Shown piece by piece: positions 1-13,487 of a DNA stretch of 64,000 nt. The notes below the pieces were generated by a model. That model was given only the letters and a program-made list of their open reading frames with translations, had not been told where the DNA came from and made no database searches. The stretch comes from Henriciella marina DSM 19595 (GTDB taxonomy: Bacteria; Pseudomonadota; Alphaproteobacteria; Caulobacterales; Hyphomonadaceae). Numbering within the stretch: position 1 is the stretch's first letter; every line of letters starts with the position of its first letter. A program made the position numbers and the translations under genes. The stretch spans positions 2,046,001 to 2,110,000 of the forward strand of contig NZ_AQXT01000002.1 of assembly GCF_000376805.1 (NCBI RefSeq). The letters run 5' to 3'.

Positions 1-2
1 TG

Positions 3-191
3 ATCCCGCTGCCTTTCCTGCAGCCCAACGGCACTGGCGCAATGTTCGATATCGGTCTACCTAGCGTTGATGACCTCGCCCCGGGAAACTGGCCAGGTCT
101 CGACACAATCACTGACGGAATCCTTACAGGCGTGCCCTTCGTCTTCGAGGCGGAACACGCGCCGACTACAGGCAGCCCTCTGGAGCGCTGA
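3..191 (+). CDS. C-terminal end of an upstream gene (unknown function)
   Basis: An open frame enters from the left edge and ends at TGA 189-191, giving about 62 residues that finish with ...TGSPLER. The stop lies one base before the ATG of the next gene (193), a spacing typical of an operon, which is why I treat it as a real partial gene. The fragment shows no motif I recognise. Because the neighbours are polysaccharide genes, an outside glycan enzyme is possible, but this is only context. Confidence 0.55.
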   Translation: MPLPFLQPNGTGAMFDIGLPSVDDLAPGNWPGLDTITDGILTGVPFVFEAEHAPTTGSPLER

Positions 192-192
192 T

Positions 193-1725
193 ATGTTTGA
201 CAACATCAAGAACTTCTTCAAACCGCCGGCCCCACTTCCACCGCCAGATCCGGACAGTGATTTCCCACCGAAGGATGGCGTCGAAAAAGAGTCATGTTCC
301 GCAAAGGATATGAAGCTCAGACGGTTCAGTAGCCTGAGAAAATTCTATCGGCCCCGTGAGAAGTCCAAAACGGAGCTGTTGCTGAACCCGTTCGGTGATC
401 CCTGGATCACCCGAACGGCGCCCAACCCGTATATCCGGACAATGACCGGCTCGCTTCTTGGCTATATGAGGAAGCAGGTCGGCGACGTTGCGGTTCCCAT
501 GATGGGCACAAAGGAAGTGGTTCGCGCCTATACGCACTATTCCGGTTATTCGACCAGCGGCTTTCATTACGATGAAAATGTTGGCCGACTTAATATGAGT
601 ATGCCCGAATTTCATAAAATGCGGGAGCTCTACAGTACGATTGGCCTCACGAAGAAATTCATCGCTTATGCGGTTCTAAACTATGACGACCACAATCTCT
701 TCGGCAAGACGTCCGGTCTGCCCGAAGAATATTTCGTTCATAAACCGGAAGACAGCCGGGATCCAAAGGACCGACTAAATTTTGTCGATGGCCAGGGTCT
801 CATTGCCCACGGACATGTTTTCGATATCCGCCGCCCCGAGGTTCGCACGAGACTCTGTGAGCGCGTTCTGGAAATGATGATCACGAACGATGTCGGCGCC
901 GTTCTCATTGACTATGCTGTGCGGCGCTATGCGTTCGGCTCACCGCACCTGGTGCACGACATGCCGGAAGACTGGTTTCCAAACTTTCAGGAACACCAGA
1001 TCAATCTCTTCATGGAGCTCTTCGAGCTGCTCGAGAAAAACAATAAAATGCTGTTCCTGAACGGCACCATGCTGGACAGCATTCTTGTGACCGAGCCGCA
1101 GCTTGTGCGCCAGTTCACAAAGAGTTGCCATGGCATGATGTGGGAGCAGCCTTTTCGCTGGGAATGGCGCAACTATGAGAAAGACGGGATCGACTATTAC
1201 GAGCGACTAGGTCAGTTTTTCGAGAACTCACACAACTTCAAGCGCCAGCACATTATCAAGTCCGGAACCTATAGGTTTCATGGCACCGAAGACGTCATTC
1301 CAGGCTGGACGACGCGCTTCAAGAAAACCAATTACGGTATAGAGCGTCATCTCGCAGCGTATGCGACGTGCTTCTTTCTTCTGTATGCAGACCGACGCTA
1401 CGACACGCTCTACCATACGCACCCGACAGCAGCTTACGACATCTACTCAAGCGAGCCTTACTTTGACATATGGGCGACCGATCTGGGGGAAGCGCTGACC
1501 AAGCGCGTGCCCTATTCCAAACATGTCCATATCCGCGAGTTCGAAAACGCCTTCGTCATTCTTAACAATACAAAGCGGTCGGTAAGGCTGAAGCCAGAGC
1601 TGATGGAGGGGCAATTCTCGGTCCCCCTTCCCGGCGTGAAGCTGAAGCCGGTGTCCGGGACGATTGTGATGAAAGAGCCTGCTGCGGAAACGGAAGACGA
1701 GCTCGCGGCAGCGGCCAACGGCTGA
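193..1725 (+). CDS. Putative glycoside-hydrolase-like TIM-barrel protein (GHL15-like)
   Basis: This 510-residue protein has no clear signal peptide. The open frame extends back to 67, but the ATG at 193 sits directly after the stop of the upstream gene and avoids an implausible basic leader, so I chose it. The central part alternates strands and acidic or aromatic loops (for example ...GAVLIDYAVRR... and ...MLFLNGTMLD...), and the end (...FENAFVILNNTKRS...) reads like the beta-sandwich that follows many hydrolase barrels. This pattern fits the hypothetical glycosyl hydrolase GHL15 group, but I cannot name catalytic acids with certainty. It lies just upstream of a CMP-sugar and glycosyltransferase operon, so processing of a surface glycan is the likely role (inference). 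A purely structural or synthase-associated protein is an alternative. Confidence 0.5.
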   Translation: MFDNIKNFFKPPAPLPPPDPDSDFPPKDGVEKESCSAKDMKLRRFSSLRKFYRPREKSKTELLLNPFGDPWITRTAPNPYIRTMTGSLLGYMRKQVGDVAVPMMGTKEVVRAYTHYSGYSTSGFHYDENVGRLNMSMPEFHKMRELYSTIGLTKKFIAYAVLNYDDHNLFGKTSGLPEEYFVHKPEDSRDPKDRLNFVDGQGLIAHGHVFDIRRPEVRTRLCERVLEMMITNDVGAVLIDYAVRRYAFGSPHLVHDMPEDWFPNFQEHQINLFMELFELLEKNNKMLFLNGTMLDSILVTEPQLVRQFTKSCHGMMWEQPFRWEWRNYEKDGIDYYERLGQFFENSHNFKRQHIIKSGTYRFHGTEDVIPGWTTRFKKTNYGIERHLAAYATCFFLLYADRRYDTLYHTHPTAAYDIYSSEPYFDIWATDLGEALTKRVPYSKHVHIREFENAFVILNNTKRSVRLKPELMEGQFSVPLPGVKLKPVSGTIVMKEPAAETEDELAAAANG

Positions 1726-1822
1726 GGAGCCACCAATTGACCTTGCCGGGGCTGGCTTTAATCGGCTAGCACCGGGACGCGCGCCGCCGCGGCGCAAATA
1801 AAGACGATCACAGGAGCTGTCA

Positions 1823-3286
1823 TTGCTGGACTCATTCGATCCGCAGAACGTGAAATCCCTGATCAATGGAGAGGCCGTTGCCAGTCAGACCACGTCTGAC
1901 ATCCTCAGCCCCCACACCGGACAGCCCATCGCCAAGCTGCACCATGGCGGCGCAGACGAGGTCGAGAAGGCCATCGCCGCCGCAAAGGCCGCGCAGAAGG
2001 CCTGGGCCGATACGCCTGCGGTCCAGCGCGGACAGATCCTGCACGCCGCCTGCAATTTGATCGAAGCGCGCGCCGAAGAGCTTTCGAAGATCGTCGCTGA
2101 AGAAGCCGGTAAGCCGCTGTCTGCCGCCTTGGGCGAGACAACCGGATCTGTCATGTGTGGGCGCTTCTATGCCGGTGAAGGCCAGCGCCTCTTCGGCCGC
2201 ACCATGCCGTCCGGCGCGCCGAACAAGTCCTGCATGACGGTCCGCCAGCCTTGCGGTGTCGCGGCCCTGATCGCCGCCGCAAATACGCCGGCCCCGAACT
2301 TTGCCTGGAAAGTTTTCCCGGCGCTTATCTGCGGCAATGCCGTCGTGCTAAAGCCTGCAGAAGACACCCCGCTTTCAGCTGACTGGATGGCCCGCGCCCT
2401 GATTGAGGCAGGCGTGCCTGCAGGCGTGATGAACGTCGTCCAGGGTCTCGGCCAGGAAGTCGGCCCGCCGCTGACTGCTCACAAGGATGTCGACGTCATC
2501 TCATTCACCGGCTCGACCCGTGTCGGCCGAGAAATCGCTGGCAAGGCAGGCGCAGACCTCAAAAAGGTCTCGCTGGAGCTTGGCGGCAAGAACGCCTTCA
2601 TCGTCTGCGACGATGCCGACATTGAAAAGGCTGTTCACTGGGCTTCTCTCTCTGCCTTCTCCAATGCGGGCCAGCGCTGCGCGTCGGGCAGCCGCTTCAT
2701 CGTTATGGACGCCGTCTATGACAAGTTCGTCGACGCGTTCGTGGCCAAGGCAAACTCCCTCAAGGCCGGTGTCGGCGACGATTGTGAGCTTGGCCCTGTC
2801 ATTAATGAGCGCCAGCTGAATAACATGCTGAGCGCCATCGAGCGCGCCAAGAGCGAAGGCGCCAAGGTGCTTTGCGGCGGCGAGCGTATCGGCGGCGACC
2901 TCGCGGGCGGCTTCTATCTGCAGGCCACACTGATCGAAGGCTCCCCGGCAGACTCCCACCTTTCGACAACAGAGCTCTTCGGCCCGGTCGGCGCGATCTA
3001 CAAGGTCAGCAGCTTCGAAGAGGCTGTCGCGCTTGCCAATGACAGCCCATACGGCCTTACCGGCACGATCCACACGACAAGCTGGGACCGCGCCTGGACC
3101 TTCACCAAAGAACTCAGCACCGGCGTCGCTGTCGTCAATGCGGGTACGTTCGGTTCAGAACCGCACATGCCGTTCGGCGGCCTTCGCGCCTCGGGCAATG
3201 GTACGCGTGAGCCCGGCACTGAAGCGCTGGACGTCTATACAGAGCTGAAAGACATCTACCTCATCACCGAGCCGGGACGGCTCTAG
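1823..3286 (+). CDS. NAD(P)-dependent aldehyde dehydrogenase family protein
   Basis: A 487-residue member of the aldehyde dehydrogenase superfamily, close to the usual length. It shows the nucleotide-binding motif FTGSTRVGREI near residue 230, the general-base glutamate in LELGGKNAF, and the catalytic cysteine in NAGQRCASGSR near residue 286. Translation probably starts at TTG 1823, because AGGAG at 1812-1816 is well spaced from it and no ATG fits. Close relatives include succinic and alpha-ketoglutaric semialdehyde dehydrogenases. Here the gene is only four bases from a CMP-sugar synthetase and is followed by a transketolase, which argues for oxidation of a sugar aldehyde during polysaccharide precursor synthesis rather than central catabolism. 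The true substrate cannot be read from the sequence. Confidence 0.9.
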   Translation: MLDSFDPQNVKSLINGEAVASQTTSDILSPHTGQPIAKLHHGGADEVEKAIAAAKAAQKAWADTPAVQRGQILHAACNLIEARAEELSKIVAEEAGKPLSAALGETTGSVMCGRFYAGEGQRLFGRTMPSGAPNKSCMTVRQPCGVAALIAAANTPAPNFAWKVFPALICGNAVVLKPAEDTPLSADWMARALIEAGVPAGVMNVVQGLGQEVGPPLTAHKDVDVISFTGSTRVGREIAGKAGADLKKVSLELGGKNAFIVCDDADIEKAVHWASLSAFSNAGQRCASGSRFIVMDAVYDKFVDAFVAKANSLKAGVGDDCELGPVINERQLNNMLSAIERAKSEGAKVLCGGERIGGDLAGGFYLQATLIEGSPADSHLSTTELFGPVGAIYKVSSFEEAVALANDSPYGLTGTIHTTSWDRAWTFTKELSTGVAVVNAGTFGSEPHMPFGGLRASGNGTREPGTEALDVYTELKDIYLITEPGRL

Positions 3287-3290
3287 GCTC

Positions 3291-4058
3291 ATGGCAGAGG
3301 CGTCTTCCCCAAGCTGTATCGCGCTCATCCCGGCCCGCTCGGGCTCCAAACGCGTGCCGCACAAGAATATCGCGCCGCTCATGGGCCATCCGCTGATCGC
3401 CTATACGATCGCGGCGGCCAAGCAGTCCGGTATTTTCGGGCGCGTCATCGTCTCAACAGACTCGCATGACTATGCCAAGGTCGCCCGCCATTATGGCGCC
3501 GAGACGCCTTTCATGCGCCCGCCGGAATATTCAGGCGACAAGTCCCCGGACATTGACTGGATCCAGCATGCGCTGCGCTGGTTTGCCGACAAGGGCGAGG
3601 CCTATGACGCCTTCGCCCTGCTGCGCCCGACCAGCCCGTGCCGTCTGCCGTCCACGATCCAGCGCGCCTGGGACCAGTTCACCCGCCAGACCGGCGTCGA
3701 CAGCCTGCGCGCGGTCGAGCCTTGCGCGCAGCACCCCGGCAAGATGTGGGTCGTGCGCGGTGAGCGGATGCACCCGCTGATGCCGATGCAGCCTGAAGAG
3801 ATCACGCCCTATCACTCGACCCAGTATCCCGGCCTGCCGCGCGTCTATGCCCAGAATGCCAGCCTTGAAATCGCCTGGTCGCGCGTCGCCCTGGAAGCCG
3901 GCACGATCGCTGGCGAAGTGCTGACCCCCTTCCTGACGAGCGGCTCCGAAGGTCTCGACGTCAACTCGCCGCGCGACTGGCGCCTGCTTGAAATGATGGT
4001 CGAGGATGGCGAAGCCGAGCTGCCGAAAATCGAACAATCCGCCTGGCAAGGCGCCTGA
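3291..4058 (+). CDS. Acylneuraminate (NeuA-type) cytidylyltransferase family protein
   Basis: A 255-residue cytidylyltransferase of the NeuA/PseF/LegF group. The N-terminal signature IPARSGSKRVPHKNI is the CTP-binding P-loop-like motif of the family, and RPTSPCR corresponds to the conserved RPTSP segment. Such enzymes join CMP to the anomeric hydroxyl of a 2-keto-3-deoxy sugar acid (sialic, pseudaminic, legionaminic or ulosonic acids). It starts four bases after the aldehyde dehydrogenase and is followed 25 bases later by a transketolase, so the three are almost certainly co-transcribed. No NeuB-type synthase or nonulosonate amine-sugar genes are seen nearby, so a classical sialic or legionaminic acid is not supported. 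The sugar acid it activates is unknown. Confidence 0.85.
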   Translation: MAEASSPSCIALIPARSGSKRVPHKNIAPLMGHPLIAYTIAAAKQSGIFGRVIVSTDSHDYAKVARHYGAETPFMRPPEYSGDKSPDIDWIQHALRWFADKGEAYDAFALLRPTSPCRLPSTIQRAWDQFTRQTGVDSLRAVEPCAQHPGKMWVVRGERMHPLMPMQPEEITPYHSTQYPGLPRVYAQNASLEIAWSRVALEAGTIAGEVLTPFLTSGSEGLDVNSPRDWRLLEMMVEDGEAELPKIEQSAWQGA

Positions 4059-4083
4059 CCAGAAGACTTGAGGAAACGACACC

Positions 4084-5997
4084 ATGGGTGACCTGATTAC
4101 CGAAGCCGTCTCCGGCACACTCTACTATCTCGACAAGCCTGCCTTTGACCGCGTGCAGGCGTGCAACGCCTCGGCTGAGCAGCGCACCAGCATCTTCGCC
4201 GACATGGCGCGTCTCAACACGCTCTACATGATCGCCAATGCAGGCTCCGGCCATATCGGATCGAGCTTTTCCAGCATGGATGTCGTCGCCTGGCTCTATC
4301 TCAATGAGATGAAGGGCGAAGACCTCTATTTCTCCTCCAAGGGCCATGACGCGCCCGGCCTTTATGCCGTGCTGACCGCGCTCGACGTCCTGCCCTTCGA
4401 CAAGATCCACAAGCTGCGCAAGATTGATGGCCTGCCAGGCCACCCGGATGTCGGTGTGGCTGGCATGGTCACCAATACCGGCTCGCTTGGCATGGGCATC
4501 TCCAAGGCCAAGGGCATGGCCTTCGCCAACCGCATGCTGGGCAAGCCGGCCCGCATCTATGTGATGACGGGCGACGGCGAGCTGCAGGAAGGCCAGATCT
4601 GGGAATCTCTGATCTCAGCCGCCAATCACGGCGTCGCCGAAGTCACCGTGATCGTCGATCACAACAAGATCCAGTCAGACTATTCGGTCGAGCGCACGTC
4701 CAGCCTTGGCGACCTTGAAGCCAAGTTCAATTCCTTCGGCTGGCACACGCAGAGCATTGACGGCCATGACCTCGACGCGATGCGCACCGCCCTCAATGCG
4801 GCCCGCGAGGACGAGAAGCGCCCAAGCGTGATCATCGCCAACACGGTCAAGGGCAAGGGCGTCAGCTTCATGGAAGGCGTCTCCGTCGACAGCGATGTCG
4901 AGCGCTTCCAGTTCCATTCCGGCGCCCCGCAGGCCGAGGACTATACGCGCGGCGCGCAGGAGCTCATCTCCCGCATTCTCGAGGGCCACAAGGCTGCTGG
5001 CCTGCCAGAGCCGGAATTCGAGACCATCGAACGCCCGGCGGCCCCGCAGGGCGGCAACCCGGTCAAGCTCTTCCCGTCCTATACGGCCGCCCTGCTCGAT
5101 CAGGCAAAGCGCAATGACAAGCTGGTCGCGCTCGACGCCGACCTTGTCCTCGACATGGGGCTGGAGCCGTTCCGCGATGCGCATCCGGACCGCTTCATCG
5201 AGTGCGGCATCGCAGAGATGGACATGGTCAGCCAGGCTGGCGGCATGGCGCTGAAAGGCCTGCTACCGGTCGTGCATTCCTTCTCCTGCTTCCTCTCGAC
5301 CCGGCCGAACGAGCAAATCTACAACAACGCCACAGAGCATACGAAGATCGTCTATGTCGGCGGCCTGTCGGGTGCGCTGCCGGGCGGCCCGGGCCACTCG
5401 CACCAGTCGGTGCGCGAGATTTCGGCCCTCGGCTCCATTCCGAAAATGGCGATGGTCGAGCCGGCCCATCCGGACGAGGTCGCGCCGCTTCTCGACTGGT
5501 GCCTCAACAGCCATGACGGCCCGTCCTTCCTGCGCCTTGTCTCGATTCCCTATGAGACGGCTTACGACGCCGATGGCAGCTGGACGCCTGTAGCCGGACA
5601 GGGCCGCGTCGCGCGCAAGGGCGATGGCAGCGCCGTTCTTATCGCCTCGGGCCTTGTCGGCACCGCGCAGGCGCTGAAAGCTGCAGAGCTTCTGTCGGGC
5701 AATGGCGTCGATGCGACCGTCATCTCCCTGCCCTTCCTCAACATGGTGGATGGCGCGTGGCTCGCAAAGACGATCGGCGAGGCAAAACTGGTCGCGACCA
5801 TCGACAATCACTATCGCCGCTACGGTCAGGGCGACGCCGTCGCGTCCGCCCTTGCCGAAGCAGGCGCCCTGTCGAACCGGAAATTCATCCGCCTCGGCCT
5901 CGACCTGACCCCGCCATCCGGCACCAATGACCAGGTGCTGAAGGCGGTCGGCCTCGATGAGGAAACCATTGCCATGGCTGTGAAGGCCGCGCTCTAG
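4084..5997 (+). CDS. Transketolase, fused N- and C-terminal parts, biosynthetic type
   Basis: A 637-residue thiamine-diphosphate enzyme. The cofactor signature runs from GDGELQEGQ to the Asn of VDHNK, roughly residues 160-195. The pyrimidine domain holds the activating glutamate in ECGIAEMDMVSQAGG near residue 380, and a standard transketolase C-terminal domain follows. The segments GHIGSSFS and SKGHDAPGLYAVL resemble the split transketolases (separate N and C subunits) found in secondary-sugar pathways more than housekeeping TktA, and the protein is slightly short for TktA. The start ATG follows GAGGAAACGACACC. Between a CMP-sugar synthetase and a glycosyltransferase, it likely moves a two-carbon ketol unit to build or shorten a surface sugar (inference). 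It could also be a relocated housekeeping enzyme. Confidence 0.88.
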   Translation: MGDLITEAVSGTLYYLDKPAFDRVQACNASAEQRTSIFADMARLNTLYMIANAGSGHIGSSFSSMDVVAWLYLNEMKGEDLYFSSKGHDAPGLYAVLTALDVLPFDKIHKLRKIDGLPGHPDVGVAGMVTNTGSLGMGISKAKGMAFANRMLGKPARIYVMTGDGELQEGQIWESLISAANHGVAEVTVIVDHNKIQSDYSVERTSSLGDLEAKFNSFGWHTQSIDGHDLDAMRTALNAAREDEKRPSVIIANTVKGKGVSFMEGVSVDSDVERFQFHSGAPQAEDYTRGAQELISRILEGHKAAGLPEPEFETIERPAAPQGGNPVKLFPSYTAALLDQAKRNDKLVALDADLVLDMGLEPFRDAHPDRFIECGIAEMDMVSQAGGMALKGLLPVVHSFSCFLSTRPNEQIYNNATEHTKIVYVGGLSGALPGGPGHSHQSVREISALGSIPKMAMVEPAHPDEVAPLLDWCLNSHDGPSFLRLVSIPYETAYDADGSWTPVAGQGRVARKGDGSAVLIASGLVGTAQALKAAELLSGNGVDATVISLPFLNMVDGAWLAKTIGEAKLVATIDNHYRRYGQGDAVASALAEAGALSNRKFIRLGLDLTPPSGTNDQVLKAVGLDEETIAMAVKAAL

Positions 5998-6013
5998 GTC
6001 CATATACAGAGCA

Positions 6014-6053
6014 TCCAGGCCGGATCAGGGGGCTTCCTCTGGTCCGGCCTGGA
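6014..6053. terminator. Strong 11-bp hairpin between transketolase and glycosyltransferase genes
   Basis: A perfect inverted repeat TCCAGGCCGGA (6014-6024) and TCCGGCCTGGA (6043-6053) with an 18-base loop lies 16 bases after the transketolase stop. It has no T-run, so it may attenuate or protect the message rather than end it fully. The following gene is on the same strand. Confidence 0.5.
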
Positions 6054-6107
6054 CACCGACAGCCCTCGCAAACCATGTTCTGGCTTGCTTGACCGGAGTT
6101 GCAGACA

Positions 6108-7148
6108 TTGGTTGCCGCCTCGCCCTTCCGCGCCAGCGTCATCATCGTGAATTACAATGGCGGCGACTATATCCAGTCGGCGGTCGACCATCTGAAAACA
6201 CAGACCCTCAAGCCTGTTGAAGTCCTCATAGTCGACAATGCGTCCACGGACGGGTCTGCCGACCGGCTGGATCTCTCGGGCCTCGAGGGCGCGCGCCTGA
6301 TGCGCATGGACGACAATCTCGGCTTTGCAGGCGGCAATAATGCCGGCGTGCGCGAGGCGCGCGGCGACTGGCTCATCCTGCTCAATCCCGACACCGAGCC
6401 GCGGCCAGACTGGATCGAAAAACTCGCCGATGCGGCCCGCCGCTATCCGGACGTGACACAGTTTGCCAGCGCGCAATTCGACGCCGAAAACCCTGACCGG
6501 CTCGACGGCACAGGCGACTGCTACTCGGTCTTCGGCTTTCCATGGCGGGGCGGCTTCGGCGCGAAGGCAAGCGACCTGCCGGAAGAAGGCGAGTGCTTTT
6601 CGCCCTGCGGCGCGACGGCGATGATCCGAAAGGACATATTCGAGGCTGCCGGCGGCTTTGACGAGAGCTATTTCTGCTATTGCGAGGATGTCGATCTTGG
6701 CTATCGCCTGCGCCTGCAGGGCGAGCGCTGCATATTCGTGCCCGGCGCCATTGTTGGCCATCATGGCAGCGCGATCACCGGCCGACAGAGCGACTTCACC
6801 GTCCGGCTCGGCACGCGCAACCGGCTGACCACCTATCTGAAGAACACCCCGCTCCTGCTCCTGATCGCCAGCATGCCCGGGCATATTCTGCTGACGCTGT
6901 ATCTCTATGTCTCAGCTTTCGGAAAGCCGCGCGCAAAGTCGATAAGGCGCGGCCTGTCGGAAGCATTCGGACGGTTTGGCGGCACGATGAAGGCCCGCCG
7001 CAAGGTGCAGCGCGAGAAGAAACTGTCCAGCTGGCAGATCTCCCGCGCCATGCACTGGAGCCCGATCACGCTCAGCCGCAGGCGCCCGCATGTCTGGCGC
7101 GCCCGGCGCTATCCGGCACCCGGCACCAGCCTCTCCCGCGACAGCTGA
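6108..7148 (+). CDS. Family 2 glycosyltransferase
   Basis: A GT-A fold glycosyltransferase of family 2, 346 residues from the TTG at 6108. It starts with the nucleotide-binding strand SVIIVNYNGGDY and carries the metal-binding acidic motif LLNPDTEP near residue 95, then a CEDVDLGYRL acceptor-side motif near residue 195. Both features are typical of rhamnosyl-transferase-like family 2 enzymes. A hydrophobic stretch around residues 250-270 (LLLLIASMPGHILLTLYLYV) suggests membrane association, followed by a basic tail. The GGAG at 6094-6097 is too close to the upstream TTG at 6099 and fits the one at 6108. It probably adds a sugar to a lipid-linked surface glycan. The donor is unknown. Confidence 0.88.
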   Translation: MVAASPFRASVIIVNYNGGDYIQSAVDHLKTQTLKPVEVLIVDNASTDGSADRLDLSGLEGARLMRMDDNLGFAGGNNAGVREARGDWLILLNPDTEPRPDWIEKLADAARRYPDVTQFASAQFDAENPDRLDGTGDCYSVFGFPWRGGFGAKASDLPEEGECFSPCGATAMIRKDIFEAAGGFDESYFCYCEDVDLGYRLRLQGERCIFVPGAIVGHHGSAITGRQSDFTVRLGTRNRLTTYLKNTPLLLLIASMPGHILLTLYLYVSAFGKPRAKSIRRGLSEAFGRFGGTMKARRKVQREKKLSSWQISRAMHWSPITLSRRRPHVWRARRYPAPGTSLSRDS

Positions 7149-7170: not shown

Positions 7171-9075
7171 CTAACTCCCGATCAGCCCTGCCTGCTCCAG
7201 CCTTGCAATGACCACATCGGCGGCCGCTTCAGGGCTCAGCCTGTCGCTGTCGAGATGGATTTCAGGATCCTGCGGCGCTTCATAGGGGCTGTCGATGCCG
7301 GTGAAGTTCTTGATCTCGCCGGCGCGCGCCTTCTTGTAGAGGCCTTTGACATCGCGGCTTTCAGCAACATCCAGCGGCACATCGACGAAGACTTCCCAGA
7401 ACTCGCCATCCTCGACCATCTGGCGCACGATCCGCCGCTCGGCCCGGAAGGGCGAGATAAACGAGACGAGCACGATGAGGCCGGCATCCAGCATGAGCTT
7501 GGCGACCTCGCCGACGCGGCGGATATTCTCCACCCGGTCGGCATCGGTAAAGCCAAGATCATTGTTGAGGCCGTGGCGGACATTGTCGCCGTCGAGGGTA
7601 TAAGTGTGCTTGCCCATCGCGGCGAGCCGCTTCTCGACAAGGTTTGCCACGGTCGACTTGCCTGCGCCCGACAGCCCCGTGAACCACAGCATGACCGGCT
7701 TCTGGCCTTTCATGGAGGCGCGCAGCTCCTTGCCGACATCCATGGACTGGCGATGGATGTTGGAGGCGCGGCGCAGCGCGAAATTGATCAGGCCAAGGCC
7801 GACCGTCTCATTCGTCATCCGGTCGATGACGATGAACCCGCCCATGCGGCGATTGTCCTTGTAGGCATCGAACGCAATCTCCCGGTCGAGGGCGATATTG
7901 ACGATGCCGATCTCATTGAGATCCAGCGTCTTGGCCGCCTCATGGGCGCGCGTATTCACATCCACACGGTAGCGCTGTTCGGTGACCTGCATCTGGCATT
8001 CACGCGCGCCGATCTTCATGATGTAGGAGCGCCCCGGCAGCATGGCGGCGTCCGACATCCAGAGCATCGTCGCCTGGAACTGGTCTGAGACTTCGGCAGG
8101 TGCCTGGTCAGCGCAGAGCACATCGCCGCGCGAAACGTCGATTTCGTCTTCCAGCGTCAGCGTGACCGATTGGCCTTCGACCGCTTCATCGAGATCACCG
8201 CCCATGGTGACGATACGGGCGACCTTGCTGGACTTGCCAGATGGCAGGGCGCGGACGCCATCACCGGGCCTGAGCGCCCCTGAAAGGATCTGCCCGGCAA
8301 AGCCGCGAAAATCGAGGTTCGGCCGGTTCACCCACTGGACCGGCATGCGGAAGGGCTGGTCCTGCACGTCCGAGGCGATCTCGACCGTGTCGAGATATTC
8401 CATCAGCGGCGGGCCGTCATACCAGGGCGTGTTGGCGCTGGGCGCGACGACATTGTCGCCAGCCAGAGCGGAGACAGGGATGGCCTGTATCGTCTCGAAC
8501 CCGAAATCGGCGGCAAATTCGCGGTAGTCGGCCTCGATCTCGTCGAAGACGCCCCGGTCATAACCGACAAGGTCCATCTTGTTGATGCAGAGCACGACAT
8601 TGCGGATGCCCAGCAGCGAGACGATGAAGCTGTGACGCCTCGTCTGCGTCAGCACGCCCTTGCGCGCATCGATCATCACAATGGCAAGGTCGGCCGTCGA
8701 GGCGCCGGTCGCCATGTTGCGGGTATACTGTTCATGGCCGGGCGTATCGGCGACGATGAATTTGCGCCGGTCGGTCGAGAAGAAGCGATAGGCGACATCG
8801 ATGGTGATGCCCTGCTCGCGCTCGGCGGCAAGCCCGTCGACCAGAAGCGCGAAGTCGATCTCCTCGCCCTGCGTCCCGAACTTCTTCGATTCATTCTTCA
8901 GCGAGGCAAGCTGGTCGTCGAAGATCATCTTCGACTCGTAAAGCAGCCGGCCGATCAGCGTGGACTTACCATCATCGACAGAGCCGCAGGTGATGAAGCG
9001 CAGGAGCGATTTCTTCAGCTGGCTGTCGAGATAGGTCTCGATATCGGCAAATTGCGGGGCAGCATAGGCAGGCAT
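7171..9075 (-). CDS. cysNC: Bifunctional sulfate adenylyltransferase subunit 1 / adenylylsulfate kinase
   Basis: This 634-residue fusion makes PAPS. The first about 430 residues are an EF-Tu-like GTPase (CysN) with [25 protein letters not shown] and NKMDLVGYD. The C-terminal about 180 residues are an APS kinase (CysC) with the P-loop [10 protein letters not shown]. CysN with CysD forms ATP sulfurylase driven by GTP hydrolysis, and CysC phosphorylates APS to PAPS in the cytoplasm. The start codon overlaps the cysD stop by one base (ATGA arrangement), so they are translated together. The same NodPQ-like fusion supplies PAPS for sulfation of carbohydrates in rhizobia. In this polysaccharide locus, glycan sulfation is as likely as cysteine synthesis. 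Confidence 0.96.
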
Positions 9076-9977
9076 CAGAAATACCCCTCCTGCTTCTTCA
9101 TTTCCATGGAGGCGGGCGCATCCTTGTCGATGGCGCGGCCTTCGCGTTCCGAGGTCGTGGTGCGCAGCATTTCCTCGATGATCTCGGTGACGGTCGAGGC
9201 AGAGGATTCCACAGCGCCGGTCAGCGGATAGCAGCCAAGCGTGCGGAACCGCACCTTCTTCATCTGCGGGGTTTCGCCAGGCTCCAATGGCAGGCGGTCA
9301 TCATCGACCATGACCATAATGCCGTCGCGCTCCACGACAGGACGCTCGGCGGCAAAATAGAGCGGCACCAGGTCGATATTCTCCTGATAGATGTACTGCC
9401 AGATATCGAGCTCGGTCCAGTTCGAGATCGGGAAGACCCGCACGCTCTCGCCGGGCTTGATGCGGGTATTGTAGAGCGACCAGAGCTCCGGGCGCTGGGT
9501 CTTCGGGTCCCAGCGGTGCTGGGCCGAACGGAAAGAGAAGATCCGCTCCTTGGCGCGCGACTTTTCCTCGTCGCGCCGCGCCCCGCCAATGGCCGCATCG
9601 AACTTGTACTTGTCGAGCGCCTGTTTGAGGCCTTGCGTCTTCATCACATCGGTATGGACCGCAGAGCCATGCGTGAACGGTCCGATGCCCTGCTCGACGC
9701 CTTCCTGATTGATATGAACCAGAAGCTCCGTCTGCGGATCATCATTGAGCGCATCGCGAAAGGCGATCATTTCCTTGAACTTCCAGGTCGTATCGACATG
9801 CAGCAGCGGGAACGGGATGGGCCCGGGATAAAACGCCTTGCGCGCCAGGTGCAGCAGGACGGAACTGTCCTTGCCGATGGAATACATCATCACCGGGTTC
9901 TGCATCGAGGCGGCCACTTCCCGCAGGATATGGACGCTCTCAGCCTCAAGCCGGTCGAGATGGGTCAGGTCTGTCAT
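9075..9977 (-). CDS. cysD: Sulfate adenylyltransferase subunit 2
   Basis: The 300-residue CysD subunit of ATP sulfurylase belongs to the PAPS reductase/ATP pyrophosphatase fold. It carries the PP-loop variant [14 protein letters not shown] near residue 35 and the C-terminal RYRERE-type region replaced by the usual family tail. The ATG giving [17 protein letters not shown] is chosen, because an extra 13 residues in the longer open frame do not match the family. It is the first gene of the cysD-cysNC pair and is read away from kdsB through a 195-base divergent intergenic region. It converts sulfate and ATP to APS. Confidence 0.96.
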
Positions 9978-10172
9978 GATATATCCGGAATTGCGCAACA
10001 GTCGGTTAGGTAACAAGCAGGACTTGCGCCAACAATGTAGGGACGGTCAACTCAGACACGGGGTTTTGCTAAACCTGCACGATATGCGTGCTGTTTGGAC
10101 CATGGCCCCCGCTTGACGAAACCGGCTGCCGCGCGCAGACCCGCTGGGCGTCATCAGCTAGCTTGCCCGCCC

Positions 10173-10988
10173 ATGAAAACACTCATCGTCATCCCTGCCC
10201 GGATCGGGTCGACCCGCTTTCCGGCAAAGCCGCTTCACAAGATTGCGGGACATTCGCTCGTCTCGCGGGTCGCGGACGTCGCCGCCCGCGTGGCCGCCGC
10301 GCGCAGCGATGTGAGCTATGTCATCGCTACCGATGATCAGGCAATCATGGATCATGCAAACGAGATCGGCGCGCCCGCCGTGATGACGGACCCGGACCTT
10401 GCATCGGGCACCGACCGCGCGCTTGCCGCCGCCCGCACCCAAGGCGAAGCGCCAGACTTCATTCTGAACCTGCAGGGAGACGCGCCCTTCACGCCGCCCG
10501 CCTATCTGGACGCGCTCATCGAAGCGGCATCTACCACGGACGCAGATGTCGTCACGCCGGTCGTGCAGCTCGACTGGGCCGCGCTCGATACGATACGTGA
10601 CCAGAAAATCCGCGAGCCTTTCAGCGGCACAAGCTGTATCCGCCGCACCGACGGCATGGCGCTCTGGTTCTCCAAACAGATCATCCCGGCCGTCCGCAAG
10701 GAAGAGGAACTGCGCGCGGAAGGCCCGCTTTCGCCGGTCTTCCGCCATATCGGGCTTTACGGCTTTCGGATGGCGGCGCTGGACCGGTTCGCCAGCCTGC
10801 CTGTTGGCCACTATGAAGCGCTTGAAGGCCTTGAGCAGCTGCGCTTCCTCGAAAACGGGATGAGCATTCTGACCGTCGCGGTGGAGCCCGGCGCAAACGC
10901 GATGTGGGGCATTGATACGCCAGAGGATGCGCGCTTTGCCGAAACGCTGATCGCCGCTGAGGGCGACCCGATGGAGGCCCTGCGCTGA
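10173..10988 (+). CDS. kdsB: 3-deoxy-manno-octulosonate cytidylyltransferase (KdsB family)
   Basis: A 271-residue CMP-Kdo synthetase family enzyme with the signature IPARIGSTRFPAKPL, the SGTDR metal/nucleotide loop, QGDAPF (QGDEP in most homologues), HIGLYGFR and LEGLEQLRFLENG. The ATG at 10173 starts exactly at the family N-terminus; the frame upstream is unrelated. It couples CMP to Kdo for lipid A core or capsule. The Glu-to-Ala change in QGDEP is within the substrate-facing loop and may mean a modified sugar acid. It is the first gene of a plus-strand run whose next gene overlaps it by one base. A KdsD homologue lies at 24160, so Kdo supply is partly encoded here, but this copy could be a second, capsule-specific KdsB. 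Confidence 0.9.
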   Translation: MKTLIVIPARIGSTRFPAKPLHKIAGHSLVSRVADVAARVAAARSDVSYVIATDDQAIMDHANEIGAPAVMTDPDLASGTDRALAAARTQGEAPDFILNLQGDAPFTPPAYLDALIEAASTTDADVVTPVVQLDWAALDTIRDQKIREPFSGTSCIRRTDGMALWFSKQIIPAVRKEEELRAEGPLSPVFRHIGLYGFRMAALDRFASLPVGHYEALEGLEQLRFLENGMSILTVAVEPGANAMWGIDTPEDARFAETLIAAEGDPMEALR

Positions 10989-11605
10989 TGGCTGTCGACC
11001 TCTATATTGTTCGCCACGGCAATACATTCGACAAGGGCGATACCGTCACCCGCGTCGGCGCGCGCACTGACTTGCCCCTGTCGGTTTCCGGCACCGCTCA
11101 GGCAGGCGCGCTTGCCGAGCACTTTAAGGACATCGCTTTCACGCAGGCCATTGCCGGCCCTCTGAAACGTACCCGGCAGACCGCTGATGCCATTCTCGCC
11201 GCGCAGGCGAGCCCCCCTGAGCTGGAGATTGGCAATTTCCTGCGGGAGATCGACTATGGCCCGGATGAAAACCAGCCAGAAGACGCGGTGATCGCCCGTA
11301 TCGGACAGAACGCGCTCGACGCCTGGGAACGGAGCGCCACACCGCCGCCCGGCTGGCGGTTCGACCCGGTCGCCATCGAGGGCCAGTGGCAGAGCCTGTT
11401 CGCCAAACTGGTAAAGTCCGGTACGCCCGGACCGGTCCTCATCGTGACCAGCAATGGCATCGCCCGTTTCGCGCTGACGGCTGGCGGCCTGAAGCCGGAT
11501 GCCAGCCAGCAGGACACGCTGAAGCTGAAAACCGGCGCCTATGGCCGCTTCACGCTGTCCGACGATGCCGAGCTTACCCTCCGTGACTGGAATGTAAGGC
11601 CGTAA
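10988..11605 (+). CDS. Histidine phosphatase superfamily protein (phosphoglycerate-mutase-like)
   Basis: A 205-residue protein with the catalytic RHG motif in YIVRHGNTFDKGD near residue 9 and the second conserved segment GPLKRTRQTADAI. Its start codon overlaps the stop of the kdsB-type gene (ATGA), so it is translationally coupled. In such a position the likely job is removing phosphate from a sugar-phosphate intermediate of the CMP-sugar pathway, comparable to KdsC or heptose phosphatases in function though not in fold. This is inference. A general phosphatase is possible. Confidence 0.8.
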   Translation: MAVDLYIVRHGNTFDKGDTVTRVGARTDLPLSVSGTAQAGALAEHFKDIAFTQAIAGPLKRTRQTADAILAAQASPPELEIGNFLREIDYGPDENQPEDAVIARIGQNALDAWERSATPPPGWRFDPVAIEGQWQSLFAKLVKSGTPGPVLIVTSNGIARFALTAGGLKPDASQQDTLKLKTGAYGRFTLSDDAELTLRDWNVRP

Positions 11606-12650: not shown

Positions 12651-12689
12651 GCGCTCCGGACTGACCCTTCCATGAGACCAGGAGACGGC

Positions 12690-13487
12690 ATGACGACGAT
12701 CACAGGCGAACAGCTGGCGCGTATTGCCCTCGATGCAGGCAAGCTGGTGATGGAGGTCTATTCGACCGACTTCGACGTCGAGCGAAAGGATGATGCCTCG
12801 CCTGTCACGGAAGCTGACGCAAAGGCTGAAGTCCTGATCCTGGCGGGACTGAAAGCGGCTGAGCCAGACCTCAAAGTCGTTGCCGAGGAGTCGGCATCGG
12901 CCGGCCACATCCCTGAGCACGGCCACCGCTTTGCCCTGGTCGATCCGCTGGATGGCACGCGCGAATTCGTCAATCGCAACGGCCAGTTCACGGTCAATAT
13001 CGGCATCATCGAACACGGCAAACCTGTGATGGGCGTCGTCTATGCGCCCGCCCTCAACCGGCTATTTGTCGCCGAAGGCCCGGACACGGCCTGGCAGGCT
13101 GACGTGAAGCCGGGCGAGCCTGTGCCCGCAAGCGATGTTCGCCGCCCACTGCATATCCGCAAATGCCCGGACGTCGGCGTCACGGCCATTGCGTCCAAGT
13201 CCCACCGGTCCCCCGAAACCGATGCCTTCCTGAAGAAATTCAAGGTCGGCGAGATCATCTCGGCAGGCTCATCCCTGAAGTTCTGCCTGCTGGGTGCGGG
13301 AGAGGCCGACCTCTATCCCCGCATGGGCCGCACGATGGAATGGGACACAGCTGCCGGACAGGCAGTCGCCGAAGCGGCTGGCGCCGTCGTCCTCACAGAA
13401 GACGGCACGCCGCTACGCTATGGCAAACGCGAGCGCGGCTACGATAATCCGCACTTCATCGTCTATGGCGATGTGGCGCCTATCTGA
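12690..13487 (+). CDS. cysQ: 3'(2'),5'-bisphosphate nucleotidase
   Basis: A 265-residue inositol-monophosphatase-fold enzyme that hydrolyses PAP to AMP. The metal site is visible in VAEES, DPLDGTREF near residue 95 and WDTAAGQAVAEAAG near residue 220, which is the CysQ form of the family. AGGAGA at 12678-12683 is ideally placed for the ATG at 12690. PAP is the by-product of every PAPS-dependent sulfotransfer, so its presence in the same cluster as cysD-cysNC strengthens the idea that PAPS is used nearby for sulfation or sulfite production. It ends two bases before the convergent galE. Confidence 0.93.
   Translation: MTTITGEQLARIALDAGKLVMEVYSTDFDVERKDDASPVTEADAKAEVLILAGLKAAEPDLKVVAEESASAGHIPEHGHRFALVDPLDGTREFVNRNGQFTVNIGIIEHGKPVMGVVYAPALNRLFVAEGPDTAWQADVKPGEPVPASDVRRPLHIRKCPDVGVTAIASKSHRSPETDAFLKKFKVGEIISAGSSLKFCLLGAGEADLYPRMGRTMEWDTAAGQAVAEAAGAVVLTEDGTPLRYGKRERGYDNPHFIVYGDVAPI

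Follow-up and report, generated by a model that had tools for sequence, protein, structure and literature searches.

Gene content of the locus

The window examined here is a 64,000-nucleotide stretch, positions 2046001-2110000 of contig NZ_AQXT01000002.1 (C2), from the complete 3.28 Mb genome of Henriciella marina DSM 19595. Four genes near its start lie on the + strand: an aldehyde dehydrogenase (ALDH, 487 aa, window positions 1823-3286; Pfam Aldedh, 517 bits), a NeuA/PseF-type CMP-sugar synthetase (cytidylyltransferase, 255 aa, 3291-4058; CTP_transf_3), a single-chain non-canonical transketolase (TK, 637 aa, 4084-5997; Transketolase_N, Transket_pyr and Transketolase_C) and a family 2 glycosyltransferase (GT2, 6099-7148; Glycos_transf_2). 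The domain matches agree with the identities and order given in a preliminary description of this DNA, and the spacers of 4 and 25 bases that it reported between ALDH, NeuA and TK can be read directly in the sequence. The operon span claimed there began at position 193, but the reading frame at 193-1725 encodes a GHL15-like putative glycoside hydrolase (25.4 bits, slightly below the Pfam cut-off of 27) and falls outside the pathway. This gene, with ~64% identity in other Henriciella loci, sits between ALDH and the 3' end of a glycosyltransferase gene at window positions 1-191 (+ strand). The complete glycosyltransferase gene (L054:14497-16191 in our locus numbering) encodes a paralogue, with 36% identity, of a 573-aa KpsC-like protein described below; it matches Pfam Capsule_synth (E 1.9e-6, 28 bits, cut-off 20) and is a putative second CMP-ulosonate transferase.

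The preliminary description had also stated that no NeuB accompanies the cytidylyltransferase. This holds inside the window, but a NeuB-SAF synthase is encoded on the opposite strand of the same contig, ~12 kb before the window (C2:2033002-2034105, equal to L054:3002-4105), with both the barrel domain (PF03102, E 2.1e-73) and the SAF domain (PF08666, E 9.8e-8) of the family. Beside it are the genes for the 573-aa KpsC-like glycosyltransferase (L054:1267-2988) and a KdsC-like HAD phosphatase (HAD, L054:752-1270), with an SDR gene nearby (L053:13901-14746). NeuB, HAD and SDR thus lie 12-16 kb upstream of the window genes. The DNA between this half and the ALDH-NeuA-TK half encodes a Wzt-like ABC ATPase, a Wzm/KpsM-like permease, glycosyltransferases and an epimerase-like protein. 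A 429-aa protein with a phage tail-fibre-like look is encoded at L054:4225-5514, between NeuB and the glycosyltransferase genes of the export cluster.

On the other side of the gene set, CysNC, CysD and CysQ (window positions 7171-10016 and 12687-13487) place sulfate activation near the polysaccharide cluster, and a sulfotransferase-like gene is present at L053:3276-4529. These genes hint at a sulfated polymer. The region holds a second cytidylyltransferase gene at 10167-11605, where a KdsB-type CMP-Kdo synthetase is accompanied by a histidine phosphatase; we rejected this KdsB as a pathway partner, as it is a separate CMP-Kdo synthetase gene.

Conservation and co-occurrence of the gene set

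The gene neighbourhood proved to be shared. Nine further loci, including five from outside Henriciella, keep the ALDH-NeuA-TK order, and the set is therefore not a product of chance. In a Hyphomonadaceae metagenome-assembled genome (MAG; L006), a Hellea MAG (L008) and genome G860 (L077), the genes form one contiguous, co-directional series, NeuB-GT-HAD-SDR-ALDH-NeuA-TK, in which GT is the 573-aa protein and identities range from 54 to 77%. As NeuB, HAD and SDR are contiguous with ALDH-NeuA-TK in these relatives, we rejected the earlier reading of a NeuB-free CMP-sugar path in favour of a NeuB/NeuA ulosonate pathway. GT2, which had been counted as the fourth gene of the set, follows TK only in the Henriciella loci L002-L005; elsewhere the TK-linked glycosyltransferase is the 573-aa protein, and we regard GT2 as accessory rather than core.

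Other genomes divide the set in different ways. NeuB-HAD-SDR-ALDH-NeuA occur together in L096, L097 and L098, and G779, G893 and G708 carry this block with TK and the 573-aa homologue as a separate pair. TK adjoins a 573-aa-type glycosyltransferase, apart from NeuB, in four genomes (L072, L075, L076 and L078), an arrangement that fits a late role for TK but not a single operon. G028 has TK, NeuA, ALDH, SDR, HAD and GT in one region and NeuB elsewhere in the genome. Shorter versions lacking this ALDH are NeuB-SDR-NeuA-TK in G281 and NeuB-SDR-TK plus an extra gene in G298; NeuB-SDR-NeuA-TK is the order in L073. On a Streptomyces megaplasmid, NeuB (47% identity), SDR (40%) and TK (50%) are consecutive and have nonribosomal peptide-type genes as neighbours, and no NeuA was seen at that locus. 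The SDR of the Streptomyces locus (L070) and the ALDH of L072 are overlapping frames and were located by tblastn. ALDH and HAD coincided in 8 of 12 loci and were absent together from the other four; we therefore distinguish two sub-types, one with HAD and ALDH, in which the catalytic motifs are intact, and one without both.

Among 385 alphaproteobacterial genomes, TK was found in four and the NeuB clade in five, with an overlap of four (hypergeometric p 5.5e-9, uncorrected for phylogeny in a small sample of kin whose loci are not independent). All nine TK genomes tested had a NeuB match, above 600 bits in eight, and seven of the nine had ALDH orthologs, which adjoin NeuB-HAD-SDR and NeuA. In a tree of 50 NeuB proteins, those from TK genomes fell into one clade of 12 (support 100/98) that includes the Streptomyces protein and the long-branched G708. 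The sole member without this TK, G205, has NeuB-SDR-NeuA-GT and only ordinary transketolases; here TK may be dispensable or replaceable. No relatives of TK were found in viral contigs. The conserved linkage and the co-occurrence of TK with one NeuB clade bear out the assignment of TK and ALDH to the CMP-sugar pathway.

The transketolase

Transketolases are textbook sugar-phosphate enzymes, and to our knowledge few are known outside central metabolism. The window protein belongs to the family, with three TK domains and the ThDP and catalytic residues in place. It is distinct from the housekeeping TK (C2:2506841) and the DXS-type relative that the host also encodes, which match the TK profile at only ~100 bits compared with 1332 for the window protein. 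Eleven members, 50-75% identical to one another, were aligned, and all checked ThDP/catalytic residues were kept (H57, H88, H120, D164, H278, E378 and H440).

The group differs from classical transketolase (EC 2.2.1.1) in the Arg/Ser/His/Arg clamp and the substrate-binding Asp. We take R358, S385, H461 and R520 to be the phosphate-holding sites of the E. coli and yeast enzymes, and D469 to be the Asp that binds the substrate hydroxyl. In the alignment, all 11 members have a gap at R358 and carry D357 in place of S385, L428 in place of H461, S487 in place of R520 and P436 in place of D469. With the clamp replaced throughout, TK quite probably acts on a substrate that lacks the usual phosphate, whether unphosphorylated or otherwise unusual. 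We infer from the residues kept that it would still move two-carbon ketol units. A split TK of Fusobacterium (36% identity), in which Ser, His, Asp and Arg are kept, was considered as a relative of interest and set aside, having an ordinary clamp and no linkage to NeuB. A two-subunit TK encoded 8 kb away from a NeuB-NeuA pair in a Deltaproteobacteria MAG (L024:18224-19925) has other clamp changes (G, G, L and K) and may be another specialised TK.

The synthase and its partner enzymes

The host NeuB scored below the cut-offs for N-acetylneuraminate synthase (TIGR03569, NeuB_NnaB; 266.9 bits against 399.65) and pseudaminate synthase (TIGR03586, PseI; 229.1 against 340.25). A profile search of the host's complete genome gave no match to NeuC and nothing over cut-off for PseB (best 173 bits against 407.75) or LegB (best 132 against 475), in line with the earlier remark that canonical entry enzymes to Neu5Ac, Pse and Leg are absent. 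Standard ManNAc, altro-diNAc and diNAcBac-type acceptor routes are therefore not evident. A long CapD/PglF-like dehydratase frame is present at C2:2565883. All seven aligned members of the NeuB clade have Ser318 where meningococcal NeuB has Arg314, a residue that we assume contacts the N-acetyl group. Taken with the entry enzymes not over cut-off, Ser318 suggests that the NeuB acceptor would lack an N-acetyl group.

The remaining enzymes also belong to their families, and those compared with equivalog models for specific functions fell short of the cut-offs. The cytidylyltransferase has CTP_transf_3 and the conserved IPARSGSKR motif of NeuA-type CMP-sugar synthetases and scored 135 bits as the pseudaminate cytidylyltransferase PseF (cut-off 205.7). 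HAD scored 74.7 bits as a Kdn-9-phosphate phosphatase (NF058599, cut-off 180). In ALDH the catalytic motifs ELGGK and AGQRC are intact, and the best NCBIfam models, those for 2,5-dioxovalerate/ketoglutaric semialdehyde dehydrogenases, matched below cut-off.

The 573-aa glycosyltransferase

KpsC and WbbB are beta-Kdo transferases that use CMP-Kdo. Pfam Capsule_synth matches to the 573-aa protein are weak, and we compared its AlphaFold model (pLDDT 85.8, pTM 0.86) with known structures. The best five matches listed were KpsC enzymes (Z 13.6-14.4, rmsd 4.0-4.3, 266-291 residues; 14.4 over 291 residues at best), and WbbB aligned at Z 11.7-11.8 and rmsd 4.6 over up to 317 residues (11.8 over 317). 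Other GT-B folds gave Z 11-13, mostly at higher rmsd, so that KpsC and WbbB stand out by their lower rmsd. The 573-aa protein, which is longer than these enzymes and only ~11% identical, is thus predicted to share their fold and stands as the leading candidate for CMP-ulosonate transferase.

Proposed pathway and alternatives

The conserved set comprises a NeuB-type synthase, HAD, SDR, ALDH, a NeuA-type cytidylyltransferase, TK and a KpsC-fold glycosyltransferase, near a Wzm/Wzt-type ABC exporter. That it is a dedicated CMP-ulosonate pathway that truly uses TK seems to us very likely. We also think it more likely than not, though we hold this less firmly, that the product is a CMP-activated 3-deoxy-2-ulosonic acid destined for a surface polysaccharide. 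NeuB would join PEP to an aldose phosphate supplied by some route other than those of NeuC, PseB or LegB, mannose-6-phosphate or another common sugar phosphate being the simplest guess, and HAD would take off the phosphate. SDR would then convert the hydroxyl beside the terminal CH2OH to a ketol, TK, without its phosphate grip, would cleave or transfer the two-carbon ketol unit, and oxidation of the newly exposed aldehyde by ALDH would add a second carboxylate, giving a ulosaric acid. NeuA would attach CMP, the KpsC-like enzyme would move the residue onto a glycan, and Wzm/Wzt would export the glycan. In the sub-type lacking HAD and ALDH, the product would have a neutral terminus.

This order of steps would explain why SDR, TK and ALDH stand together. 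Tailoring by these three enzymes after NeuB is nevertheless only a tentative proposal. We hold with similar reserve the broader reading of a new ulosonic/ulosaric acid class, formed by NeuB and then remodelled by a TK that takes unphosphorylated sugar acids, with SDR forming the ketol, TK adding or removing two carbons and ALDH finishing the end. No more securely, such an acid might serve Alphaproteobacteria as a polysaccharide sugar activated with CMP and, where NeuB-SDR-TK occur alone, might be a building block of an actinobacterial natural product. The preliminary description had suggested an unusual CMP-activated acid made by two-carbon transfer and aldehyde oxidation; the TK/ALDH linkage supports this, its NeuB-free argument falls away, and with its chemistry conjectural it stands as the leading idea.

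The main rival places TK ahead of NeuB. Its model is the aminoshikimate (AHBA) path, where a TK precedes RifH (PMC8788734) and feeds this PEP-condensing synthase through iminoerythrose-4-P (PMC8788734; PMC4551226). SDR would make a ketose, TK would remove two carbons, the shorter aldose would be the NeuB acceptor, and ALDH would oxidise either the released glycolaldehyde or the ulosonate end. Streptomyces shares exactly the NeuB-SDR-TK core, and none of the usual sources of an aldose scores above cut-off, so this order deserves serious weight, though we are inclined to doubt it: TK adjoins the glycosyltransferase, away from NeuB, in L072, L075, L076 and L078, and the presence of HAD points to an acceptor that carries a phosphate, something that a TK lacking the clamp would be poorly suited to supply. 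The same Streptomyces gene order would match a TK that branches the sugar. Here SDR would form a ketone on the ulosonate ring or side chain and TK would attach a hydroxyacetyl group there, so that the ulosonic acid is branched; ALDH would act elsewhere. Rif15, a late tailoring TK that extends a ketone by a two-carbon keto unit (PMC6002545), is a precedent, but it is a two-subunit, distant relative, and ALDH is left unexplained; we consider branching unlikely.

Slightly less likely again is the synthesis of ordinary CMP-Kdn or another known nonulosonate by NeuB, HAD and NeuA, with TK and ALDH present for precursor balance or by chance. NeuB, NeuA, HAD and SDR without TK are common, as in Chloroflexota with NeuA-HAD fusions beside NeuB and SDR, and mannose-6-phosphate would be to hand, given the GDP-mannose/fucose genes in L053. 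However, the presence of TK closely tracks that of one NeuB clade, in different families and in Streptomyces, and NeuB, HAD and NeuA lie below the equivalog cut-offs tried. With its phosphate clamp apparently lost, TK would also not serve simple pentose-phosphate balancing. Finally, the ALDH and TK families both have many housekeeping roles, and the two genes could come from an unrelated central-metabolism operon that adjoins neuA by chance. We give this almost no credence: gene order is kept across families, ALDH is flanked by SDR and NeuA even where no TK is adjacent, and the genome has its own housekeeping TK. The possibility, raised in the preliminary description, that ALDH and TK serve an unrelated path is thus contradicted by the conserved neighbourhoods.

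Relation to known systems

The set shares its NeuB-SAF synthase, KdsC-like HAD, NeuA-type CMP transfer and, often, SDR with the nonulosonate pathways for Neu5Ac, Pse and Leg and with the Kdn-9-P route. It differs from them in its additional TK and ALDH, in a host without NeuC, PseB or LegB above cut-off and in a NeuB and HAD that score under the equivalog cut-offs. The new element is the addition of a non-canonical TK and ALDH to NeuB/NeuA ulosonate synthesis of a known kind. It had been remarked earlier that known CMP-sugar paths do not use a TK with an ALDH, and we likewise found no such pathway described in the open-licence literature, where no paper relevantly joins nonulosonic acid or NeuB with transketolase; subscription papers fall outside that scope. 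The TKs of rifamycin L/B conversion (Rif15) and before RifH in AHBA synthesis are likewise specialised enzymes of secondary metabolism, but Rif15 has two subunits and no NeuB/NeuA partner or CMP-sugar. If correct, the association of a sialic-acid-type synthase with a TK clade that has lost its phosphate grip would extend TK catalysis to a new use and would suggest that marine bacteria carry an acidic sugar not yet described.

Related loci in other bacteria

Chloroflexota and related MAGs (L009-L022) recurrently combine NeuB, SDR and a NeuA that is in many cases fused to HAD with a distantly homologous counterpart of the 573-aa glycosyltransferase and a reading frame with a CysC-like kinase end. 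These sets have no TK or ALDH and represent an uncharacterised sister pathway.

In Streptomyces sp. NBC_01237, the plasmid-borne NeuB-SDR-TK triad (L070:13123-16896) lies near adenylation/NRPS, P450 and methyltransferase genes and near genes for an HPPD/hydroxymandelate-synthase-like protein and an aminotransferase. The locus looks like a natural-product cluster with a ulosonate-derived unit, and its nonribosomal peptide surroundings offer a second, independent place to seek the product.
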